Shown: positions 1 to 14,747 of the stretch, piece by piece
Position numbering within the stretch: the stretch's first letter is position 1
Layout of the letters: every line of letters begins with the position of its first letter
Assembly: GCA_029557535.1 (NCBI GenBank)
Contig: JAKQII010000166.1
Coordinates: 1 to 33,276 of the forward strand
Source: Acidobacteriota bacterium
Lineage (GTDB): Bacteria; Acidobacteriota; Blastocatellia; Pyrinomonadales; Pyrinomonadaceae
DNA: 33,276 nt
Direction of reading: 5' to 3'
The notes under the pieces: generated by a model
Databases searched by the model: none
What the model was told of the DNA's origin: nothing
What the model saw: the letters and a program-made list of their open reading frames with translations, nothing else
Program-made: the position numbers and the translations under genes

Positions 1-93
<93 letters not shown>

Positions 94-97
94 CTAG

Positions 98-631
98 ATG
101 ATCGACATTGAACAAGATATAAACGACGATCCCGGGTTCATAAAGACGGTGCAAAACGTTTTAGCGTTTTACCTTCGAACCCGCGATCCGAACTACGTTT
201 CGATCATCAAGGTAGATCATTGGTTTGATTTCAAGTGGCGGGAGTTTTCGCACAAGATTTTCGGGGCGTTGGGGATTTGGCGCGAACCTTTGAGAATTCC
301 TCCGTTTCATCCGAATCGGATCGTCGAGGAGTTTCACTTTGAGAAGGATGGCGAACAGTACTACCGGATCGAACGTTATTCGCACATATTTCAGCCATCT
401 TCTGAAAATGCGCAGAGAAAGATTAGAAGAAACCGCGCACTGTACGTTTGGTTTAGCGGTGACACGAAAAGCGGAAACCAAGCGAGTCTGATGATCTATG
501 ACTTCCCCGATGAAACTCAGAACTCGTGGTATGCGTCGTTTCTAAAGGGTTCGCACCGCGCCGATTGGCAGGTTCGAAAAACGGATGGAATCTCAAGAGC
601 CGAACTTGGAATGATGATTTCCGGCACTTGA
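98..631 (+). CDS. Unrecognised 177-aa protein between pheS and pheT
   Basis: I do not recognise a family. The ATG lies 4 bp after the pheS stop, and the TGA overlaps the region where the next gene begins, so it looks co-transcribed with pheS and pheT. The product is soluble in appearance: no signal peptide or membrane segment, rich in aromatic residues (for example DHWFDFKWREF near residues 40-50 and ALYVWFSGD near 113-121), with many Arg and Lys in the middle. The mix of hydrophobic and charged residues looks like a real folded protein rather than a shadow frame. The DNA is visibly more AT-rich than pheT, which hints at different origin. No clear Shine-Dalgarno precedes the ATG, so translation may be coupled to pheS. 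Confidence 0.6.
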   Translation: MIDIEQDINDDPGFIKTVQNVLAFYLRTRDPNYVSIIKVDHWFDFKWREFSHKIFGALGIWREPLRIPPFHPNRIVEEFHFEKDGEQYYRIERYSHIFQPSSENAQRKIRRNRALYVWFSGDTKSGNQASLMIYDFPDETQNSWYASFLKGSHRADWQVRKTDGISRAELGMMISGT

Positions 632-639
632 TTTACGCA

Positions 640-945
640 ATGGGTTGGGCAACGCCGTATATCGCTGAACTCAAAGACGGCCGGACCGTGAAGTTCCGGC
701 CGCGTGGCCATTCGATGAAGGGCAAGATCGAATCGGGCCAGCTTTGCACGGTCGAACCGATCGCCGATATCGGTACGATCGGAACAGGCGACATCGTCCT
801 ATGCAAGGTGAACGGAAGCGATTACTTGCATCTCGTCAAGGCAGTTCAGGGCGCGCGGTTTCAGATCGGAAACAATCGCGGCCGCATAAACGGCTGGATC
901 GGGCCGAACTTGATCTACGGAAAACTCGTGGCGATCGAGGATTAA
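640..945 (+). CDS. Small S24/S26-like peptidase-fold protein without DNA-binding domain
   Basis: From the ATG at 640 the product is 101 aa. It carries a LexA/signal-peptidase-type core: RPRGHSMKGKIESGQ around residues 20-34, where Ser25 sits in the GxSM motif, then GTGDIVLCKV (49-57), and YLHLVKAV (62-69) with Lys68 in the position of the general base. The Ser-Lys spacing of 43 is close to that of LexA-like proteins. There is no helix-turn-helix upstream and no transmembrane anchor, so it is neither a complete repressor nor a membrane leader peptidase. The frame is open upstream to 526 and a TTG at 628 overlaps the previous stop, so the exact start is uncertain. It ends 6 bp before pheT. Substrate unknown. 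Confidence 0.65.
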   Translation: MGWATPYIAELKDGRTVKFRPRGHSMKGKIESGQLCTVEPIADIGTIGTGDIVLCKVNGSDYLHLVKAVQGARFQIGNNRGRINGWIGPNLIYGKLVAIED

Positions 946-3076: not shown

Positions 3077-3262
3077 AGTAGACGGTAGTCAGTAGGCCGT
3101 AGAGGGTAGGCGTACAATTGTCGTTGGAAGTCGACGGAAAGCGTTCTTTTCATTAGCGGCCACGCGCGAATCGAAAAGCTCTGATGTAATCGGTAAAGTC
3201 TGGCTGTTTGAGCGGTGACAACACTCCAGCTACCGTCTCCGGTCTACTGACTACCGTCTACT
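3077..3262. repeat. 186-bp spacer element with perfect 19-bp inverted ends
   Basis: The left end AGTAGACGGTAGTCAGTAG (3077-3095) is perfectly complementary to 3244-3262. Further imperfect complementarity continues inward (GGCCGTAGAGGGTAGG against AGCTACCGTCTCCGG). The element begins 2 bp after the pheT stop codon. It encodes no protein. The ends match those of the argR-argG spacer element at most positions, so it belongs to a dispersed family. Confidence 0.85.
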
Positions 3263-3619: not shown

Positions 3620-3654
3620 TCCCAAAACTTGGAAGAATGAGAGGTGGAACCGAA

Positions 3655-3978
3655 GTGACCGAACAATCGATCCGAGTAGAGATCTATAACCAGACCTATA
3701 ACATCCGGTCGGACGGCGATAACGATTACATCATGCGCCTCGCCGAGTATGTCGACGGCAAAATGCGCGAGATCTCGTCGGGCACGCTCACCGTCGACTC
3801 GCTCAAAGTCGCGATCCTGGCGGCGCTGCATATCGCCGACGAATTCCATCAATTGAAAAACCTTCAGGAAGCGACCGACGCTCAGATCGCCGTCCGCAGC
3901 GCCGAAATGACCGAAATGCTCGACCACATCTTCAAGCAGAAGGACATTAAGCCCCAGGAAGTCGAGACCGAACAATAG
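3655..3978 (+). CDS. zapA: Cell division protein ZapA
   Basis: The 107-aa product has the ZapA layout: an N-terminal beta-rich head (SIRVEIYNQTYNIRSDGDNDYIMRLAEYVDGKM) followed by a helical and coiled-coil tail (DSLKVAILAALHIADEFHQL). ZapA bundles FtsZ filaments and promotes Z-ring stability. The GTG at 3655 is preferred over the ATG at 3637 because GAGGTGG sits 7 bases upstream of it. The gene follows the ZapB-like coiled coil and precedes a probable 6S RNA, an order shared with the zapA-ssrS arrangement of many bacteria. The stop codon TAG overlaps the start of a spacer repeat. Confidence 0.88.
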   Translation: MTEQSIRVEIYNQTYNIRSDGDNDYIMRLAEYVDGKMREISSGTLTVDSLKVAILAALHIADEFHQLKNLQEATDAQIAVRSAEMTEMLDHIFKQKDIKPQEVETEQ

Positions 3979-4176: not shown

Positions 4177-4373
4177 CCAGCGGAAGAACTCCACTGCGGG
4201 GTTCGTGACCAGACGACATAATAATTGAGCCAACATTAATTGATCGGGAAGCTGATGCCCGTTTCAGTGCAGTCTTCTACGATGGAGATCTGCCGGAGAA
4301 TCAGGCTCGTTGCGTTCGGAAACGATCGCACTAGGTTACCCACCTGTAGAATACAGGTTCAATTTTTCCGTCT
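4177..4373 (+). ncRNA. ssrS: Probable 6S RNA
   Basis: The non-coding stretch between zapA and ymdB begins just after a TATAAT box. CGGAAGAAC (4181-4189) can pair with GTTC...TTCCG (4357-4370) with a bulge as a closing stem, and GTGACC (4205-4210) pairs with GGTTAC (4334-4339). The left strand CTGCGGGGTTCGTGACC and the right strand AGGTTACCCACCTGTAG resemble the conserved strands flanking the open bubble of 6S RNA. Location next to zapA is the classic ssrS locus. 6S RNA mimics an open promoter and binds housekeeping RNA polymerase in slow growth. Ends are approximate; I could not fold it or run a covariance model. Confidence 0.65.
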
Positions 4374-4477
4374 GAACGGCCATCGTGGTACTCTTCCGTT
4401 GATAGAATAGTAGACCCTATATAGTTCCCAAGAGTGAAGCTGCTCTTGGATTTTTGTTTTTTTCGGGGATTCAGTTT

Positions 4478-5266
4478 GTGAAAGTTCTCATGATCGGTGA
4501 TGTCGTCGCCCGTCCGGGACGCCGGATCGTTTTGGACAGACTCACCGGAATACGAAAGGAATTCGGGATCGATATCGCCACGCTCAACGCCGAGAACGTC
4601 GCGGGTGGATTTTCGATAACTCCGCCGATCGCCGACGAACTGTTCGCGGCCGGAATCGACGTCATGACGTCCGGAAATCATATCTTCGACAAGCCGGAGA
4701 TCATTCCCTACATCGAAAAGAATCCGAGATTGCTGCGCCCCGCGAATTATCCGCCGTCGACGCCGGGTCACGGGCTTTTCGTCGGCGAGGTCAACGGATT
4801 CCGCATTGCGGTTCTGAACGTCATGGGGCGCCTTTTCATGCCGCCATCCGACGATCCCTTCCGGGCCGCGAACGATTGCGTACGGGCGATACCCGATGAC
4901 GTCCGGATCCGGCTTGTGGACATGCATTCGGAAGCGACAAGCGAAAAATACGCGATGGGCTGGTATCTCAACGGTCGAGTATCGGCCGTCGTCGGGACCC
5001 ATACCCACGTCCAGACCGCCGACGAACGCATCCTCGACAAAGGAACTGCCTATATTACTGATCTTGGAATGACCGGAAGCTACGCCGGCGTGATCGGCAT
5101 GGAAAAATCGGGCGTGATCGAACGATTTACAAAACACCCGGCACCGCGGGCGGAGCATTCAAAAGGCGACGCCTGGCTGTGCGCCGTGGTCATCGACATC
5201 GACGAGGAGACCGGTCGCGCCCGTTCGATCGAACGGCTGAAGATCACCGAGGAAGATTGGACTTAG
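4478..5266 (+). CDS. YmdB-family metallophosphoesterase (cyclic-nucleotide phosphodiesterase)
   Basis: The GTG at 4478 has GGGGAT 7-8 bases upstream and gives 262 aa, the usual family length. Metal-site motifs of the YmdB/TIGR00282 family are in place: [11 protein letters not shown] (Asp8), NAENVAGG (Glu39, Asn40), SGNHIFDK (Asn67), MHSEATSEK (His150) and [10 protein letters not shown] (His175, His177). Characterised members are binuclear-metal phosphodiesterases acting on 2',3'-cyclic nucleotides and affect biofilm and RNA turnover. In many bacteria the gene follows zapA and rny; here no rny is present between them and the 6S RNA occupies the gap. The TAG stop overlaps a spacer repeat. Confidence 0.88.
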
Positions 5267-14661: not shown

Positions 14662-14747
14662 TGGTGCCGAGAGCGAGACTCGAACTCGCACGCCTTGCGG
14701 CACAGGCTCCTAAGACCTGCGTGGCTGCCAATTTCACCATCTCGGCA
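14662..14747 (-). tRNA. tRNA-Leu (anticodon UAG)
   Basis: Read on the minus strand, the 7-bp acceptor stem TGCCGAG pairs with CTCGGCA, followed by an encoded CCA at 14664-14662. The D arm (TGGTGAAATTGGCA), an anticodon loop CTTAGGA with anticodon TAG, a long variable arm (TGCCGCAAGGCGT region) and a T loop of GTTCGAGTC are all present. The long variable arm and TAG anticodon identify tRNA-Leu. It reads CUA, and by wobble other CUN codons. Confidence 0.95.

Follow-up and report, generated by a model that had tools for sequence, protein, structure and literature searches.

The window, a 33,276-nucleotide stretch of a Pyrinomonadaceae genome that runs from base 1 of contig G000:C355, begins at a pheST operon in which pheS and pheT are separated by two small genes, here called A and B (Table 1). 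The four genes are co-directional, and the gaps between pheS (stop codon at 91-93) and A, A and B, and B and pheT are 4, 8 and 6 bp, respectively; the coordinates and spacings given for this split operon in a preliminary description of the sequence were correct. Further downstream, a 6S RNA is predicted at 4188-4395, 3' of a zapA-like gene (3637-3978) and 5' of a YmdB-like gene (4454-5266), with a score of 46.6 bits that barely exceeds the Rfam cut-off of 46.4. A tRNA gene at 14665-14746 on the minus strand adjoins genes that resemble, by eye, trigger factor, clpP, clpX and lon.

Table 1. Genes at the pheS-pheT junction of the window and the basis of their assignment
Feature	Position	Strand	Basis
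pheS, 3' end	1..93	+	contig starts inside the gene; matches the PheS C-terminus
Gene A, 177 aa, family unassigned, AT-richer, rare	98..631	+	open frame; four relatives
Gene B, 101 aa, soluble, mini-peptidase-like, Ser25-His64	640..945	+	relatives, model, fold matches, conservation
pheT, 707 aa	952..3075	+	B3_4, tRNA_synthFbeta, B5 and FDX-ACB domains

The composition of gene B is like that of pheT, with a G+C content of 0.57 in both and third-position values of 0.72 and 0.70, respectively. Gene A differs (G+C 0.47; third positions 0.56) and was rightly described at the outset as AT-richer and unrecognised, with zero matches at E<=1 in Pfam, NCBIfam, PHROGs or PADLOC. Comparison with solved structures gave no convincing match, and the single-sequence structure model, with a pLDDT of 44, is too poor for use. 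Four relatives of gene A were detectable: a second copy in the same genome at 34% identity (L024), two in another genus (L019 and L020) flanked by genes that look by eye like an alpha/beta-hydrolase and an aminodeoxychorismate lyase, and a fourth in a distant genome of the Acidobacteriota (L268). Gene A is present in three of 396 genomes sampled across the phylum, the source genome among them, and searches of viral contigs and plasmids for relatives came up empty.

The AlphaFold2 model of the gene B product, built from 18 sequences, has a mean pLDDT of 91.7 and a pTM of 0.84 and describes a compact beta fold. Foldseek matched this model with a probability of about 1.0 to the LexA C-domain (E 2.1e-4, TM about 0.6), SpsB of S. 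aureus, UmuD' and the human signal peptidase complex; SipA was also among the structural matches, and the best viral structural match was an archaeal-type signal peptidase I. Matches to the Pfam Peptidase_S24 and S26 profiles were sub-threshold only, with 16.6 bits against PF00717 relative to a curated cut-off of 23.3, and the best family member in alignment A1 reached E 2.8e-8 against the same profile. That the protein lacks both DNA-binding and membrane parts, as had been supposed, is upheld by the 24 residues that precede Ser25, a start shared by its relatives, and by the lack of any long hydrophobic segment among its 101 residues.

Conservation across 95 family members, whose identity falls to about 40-50%, points to a different active center from the one first proposed. 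Ser25, His64, Gly23, Met26 and Asn84 are invariant (95/95), and Asn78 and I76 are nearly so (94/95). The preliminary description had assigned a free-standing LexA/signal-peptidase-like core with Ser25 and Lys68; the serine and, by the model, the free-standing core stand, while the lysine is residue 67 and is not a conserved base, being present in 69 of 95 sequences and replaced by T, S, R, L, G, Q, E or H in the other 26. A LexA-like Ser-Lys autoprotease was rejected on these grounds, the invariant partner of the serine being His64. In a profile alignment of B with SpsB, His64 falls on the lysine of YVKRV and Ser25 on the nucleophile, the two catalytic residues of SpsB, and His64 likewise aligns with the histidine of VHRV in longer Acidobacteriota relatives. 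The register of His64 with the catalytic lysine, together with an IGNN motif at the place of the Omega-loop (a loop assignment made by sequence), sets B nearer to the Ser-His branch of signal peptidases than to LexA. The center looks Ser-His and SEC11-like, which would make B proteolytic; the LexA/signal-peptidase superfamily also has inactive members, and catalytic-looking residues are sometimes kept for structure.

Gene B belongs to a widespread unnamed family that is most numerous in contigs of large phages. None of the libraries searched has a dedicated entry for it, and a literature search on the family found no papers. Matches occur in 14 of 119 genomes of the order, and 17 loci, all but one at 63-75% identity, were found in genome contigs of several phyla, which include Lysobacter, Occallatibacter and MAGs filed as Nannocystis, Planctomycetota and Flavobacteriales. 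Annotated relatives on 0.8-0.9 Mb replicons of Vibrio, Variovorax and Miltoncostaea are labeled as S24 or S26 peptidases or as hypothetical. IMG/VR, in which viral labels are predictions, yielded 117 relatives, of which 80 were kept; their contigs have a median length of 110 kb, with 47 of 79 at 100 kb or more and 26 of 79 at 200 kb or more. One relative, named repressor-like, is carried by an annotated Caudoviricetes genome of 197 kb. Every relative stands alone, with a length of about 100 residues, and many begin with MGWA.

The surroundings of these copies vary. A fixed phage neighbor was rejected, as the commonest neighboring family, an HNH-like endonuclease, occurs at only nine of 80 loci; a gene that resembles a release factor by eye lies close to B in five. 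In the Vibrio, Miltoncostaea and Variovorax records (L154, L155 and L156, respectively), B lies amid mostly hypothetical proteins, the Variovorax replicon has tmRNA and SmpB and the Miltoncostaea replicon an RNA ligase, and all three records may describe giant phage-like elements that were deposited as plasmids. At locus L242 (G437:C9:3653-4263), gene B occurs twice, about 20 bp apart, with an internal stop codon in the second copy.

Within the Pyrinomonadaceae, B is found between pheS and pheT in 11 genomes from several genera, including the source genome. It is intact in six (the source genome, G011, G029, G030, G033 and G066) and broken in five, by an internal stop (G032), by frame breaks (G072 and G074), or by reduction to a C-terminal piece (G009) or to about ten codons at the pheS stop (G061). 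Purifying selection acts on B between the intact copies (pN 0.10-0.18 versus pS 0.47-0.93). Decay of the genes and absence of the peptidase fold had both been named beforehand as outcomes that would count against a functional system: the former was seen for B in five of the 11 genomes, and on the latter the model confirmed the fold. No trace of B was found at pheST in 63 of 73 relatives with a resolved junction.

The junction itself holds unrelated contents in other genomes, among them a PIN-domain gene with a small partner, XisH/XisI, WG-repeat proteins, a serine dehydratase, an NAD-binding protein and an ABC-type binding protein. XisI alone or XisH-XisI lies inside pheST at L084 (G029) and L081 (G030), and WG-repeat proteins occupy several other gaps. 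Over 74 junctions, which include a second allele of the source MAG, the gap ranges from -4 bp to more than 4 kb and is at least 130 bp in 37. At the control junction rplT-pheS, 18 of 39 gaps with both genes readable are at least 130 bp, a sample biased to short pheS-pheT gaps because the region read ended 4.5 kb upstream of pheT. Because the two junctions are about as variable as each other, pheS-pheT was rejected as a special insertion hotspot, and the special arrangement that had been suspected here gives way to a broader pattern in which extra genes are common in housekeeping operons of the Pyrinomonadaceae. At L111 (G064), a 53-aa frame within the pheS-pheT gap, about 770 bp before pheT, gives another short match to the pheT N-terminus (51% over 45 residues), which an insertion may have left behind as a partial duplication.

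Two trees place the pheST copies of B on one side of a branch that is unsupported (7/0; 101 columns), within a bacterial group that itself lies among phage copies. The copy in G106, elsewhere in that genome, groups with copies from other families of the class and on its tree position is best taken as a separate entry. A clade of three B copies from the same genus was not rejected (p-AU 0.22 on the 101-column alignment).

The source assembly also holds a second pheST junction, on contig C162 (L143, G000:C162), in which pheS is followed by a 108-bp spacer (3155-3262) and the start of pheT, with neither A nor B. The final 94 bp of pheS are 99% identical in the two alleles, and a 158-bp stretch that begins just upstream of the pheT start is 92% identical; the identity stops right after the pheS stop codon and returns a few bases before the pheT start. 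The spacer contains an imperfect inverted repeat, pieces of which recur on many other contigs. The simplest reading of C162 is a co-existing strain that lacks both genes.

Many phage copies of B are located inside same-strand tRNA arrays, some with tmRNA. On 14 contigs with 1-20 tRNAs, not all of them independent, B lies closer to tRNA genes than random positions do (Fisher P = 6.5e-4; 0.003 without two related contigs), and half of these contigs show no such closeness. A count within 4 kb, a less fair measure than the distance test, gave no excess, with a tRNA near B on 16 of 40 contigs relative to an upper-bound expectation of 21; the tRNAs near B number 150 against 38 expected, the two figures coming from different programs. 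Large phages are generally tRNA-rich (PMC7162821). We regard the position of phage B near tRNA genes as a lead, not a result, and it makes a link between B and translation possible.

Taken together, we favor, at a probability of roughly 0.55, the reading that the pheST operon carries B as a passenger, a mini-peptidase of phage origin that acts in trans, with its activity and its target both inferred. A large phage or similar element would have brought B into an ancestor of the Pyrinomonadaceae, where it would have settled in the pheST operon and then been inherited with repeated loss; we infer the phage-to-bacterium direction of this transfer, and repeated transfer into the pheST site may also be compatible with the tree, given a branch support of 7/0. 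Translated along with the operon, the protein would stay cytoplasmic and would not form part of the synthetase. His64 would activate Ser25, the IGNN.G.INGW segment would be the counterpart of the signal-peptidase GDN loop that orients the nucleophile, and the soluble protease would clip an exposed peptide of another protein in trans. Cleavage of another protein rather than of B itself is suggested by the lack of both a LexA-like cleavage arm and a membrane anchor. Gene A is most likely a separate passenger, unrelated to B.

A serious, if rather doubtful, alternative is that B is a binding or regulatory module in which the core fold serves as a peptide- or RNA-binding shape, comparable to SipA or to UmuD' in its structural role. 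Such a module would account for residues outside the dyad that are as strictly kept as the dyad itself (G23, M26 and N84 in 95/95; N78 and I76 in 94/95) and agrees with the presence of SipA, a signal-peptidase homolog, among the structural matches; it fits poorly with the retention of Ser25 and His64 without exception in 95 sequences of such divergence. Regulation or processing of PheRS or another translation component is quite unlikely to be the job that the pheST location and the phage tRNA proximity reflect. The six intact operon copies and the distance test (P = 6.5e-4 or 0.003) are what such a role would predict, and they must be set against the copies in other phyla, which are not at pheST, the 63 of 73 relatives that have no trace of B there, the absence of closeness in half of the 14 contigs, and the tendency of large-phage tRNA arrays to gather other cargo as well. 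Action on PheRS in particular is possible but unlikely, since most relatives have no B at pheST and B elsewhere has other neighbors. We would likewise give little weight to a bolder combination with our preferred reading, in which large phages would use B as a protease tied to translation. B would then be a minimal signal-peptidase-like core of the Ser-His type that works in the cytoplasm, cleaves a tRNA-acting factor of host or phage, and was domesticated by the Pyrinomonadaceae in the PheRS operon.

The preliminary description had further treated A and B as a tightly coupled pair, and a functional two-gene module inserted into pheST as a unit (for example, toxin-antitoxin or protease-substrate) would suit two adjacent, co-directional genes 8 bp apart that are both missing from C162, all the more as a PIN-domain gene with a small partner fills another pheST gap. 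We consider this very improbable, as the two genes are distributed independently and do not recur together: B is undetectable in the three other genomes that carry a relative of A (G055, G076 and G466), the neighbors at the examined B loci differ from A, the B remnants in G072, G074 and G061 come directly after pheS without A, and the composition of A is not that of B. The A-B pair is not a system in itself. Hardly credible, finally, is an assembly artefact that joined unrelated contigs, even though the window opens where its contig does and C162 in the same MAG offers a junction that lacks both genes, because B occupies the same place in related genomes from other assemblies and the 99% and 92% identities of the two alleles are as expected for co-existing strains.

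If the preferred reading of B as a mini-peptidase holds, the protein would represent the Ser-His branch of the LexA/signal-peptidase superfamily in a minimal version free of the membrane, and its target, once known, could expose a common step in infection by large phages. For the pheST operon, the main lesson is that essential operons of the Pyrinomonadaceae readily take up extra genes.

With the S26 enzymes of the SEC11/SipW type (Ser-His), B shares the core fold, the G-x-S-M motif, a GDN-like loop (GNN in B) and a histidine where bacterial signal peptidases have their catalytic lysine. It differs from them in its length of only 101 residues, without a transmembrane anchor or any sign of a membrane role. 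An acidic residue completes the active center of SEC11-type enzymes, and near its expected place B has Asn84, an acidic residue not being evident. In SEC11A, a histidine replaces the lysine of the E. coli signal peptidase, and an Omega-loop asparagine is held against the nucleophile in signal peptidases; LexA-type enzymes have a conserved proline and an aromatic residue at the Omega-loop place (PMC12984324). Like the S24 proteins (LexA, UmuD and the C-terminal domain of the phage CI repressor), B is soluble, has the same core fold and is the size of a catalytic domain, but it lacks a DNA-binding domain, an arm with a cleavage site ahead of the serine, a conserved catalytic lysine and a loop proline of the LexA type. 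Its nearest longer relatives by profile are unnamed S24/S26 proteins of the Acidobacteriota (L243-L265), which are longer (open frames mostly of 160-240 aa), more diverged and extended by extra C-terminal parts, and which share with B the same serine and the histidine of VHRV.
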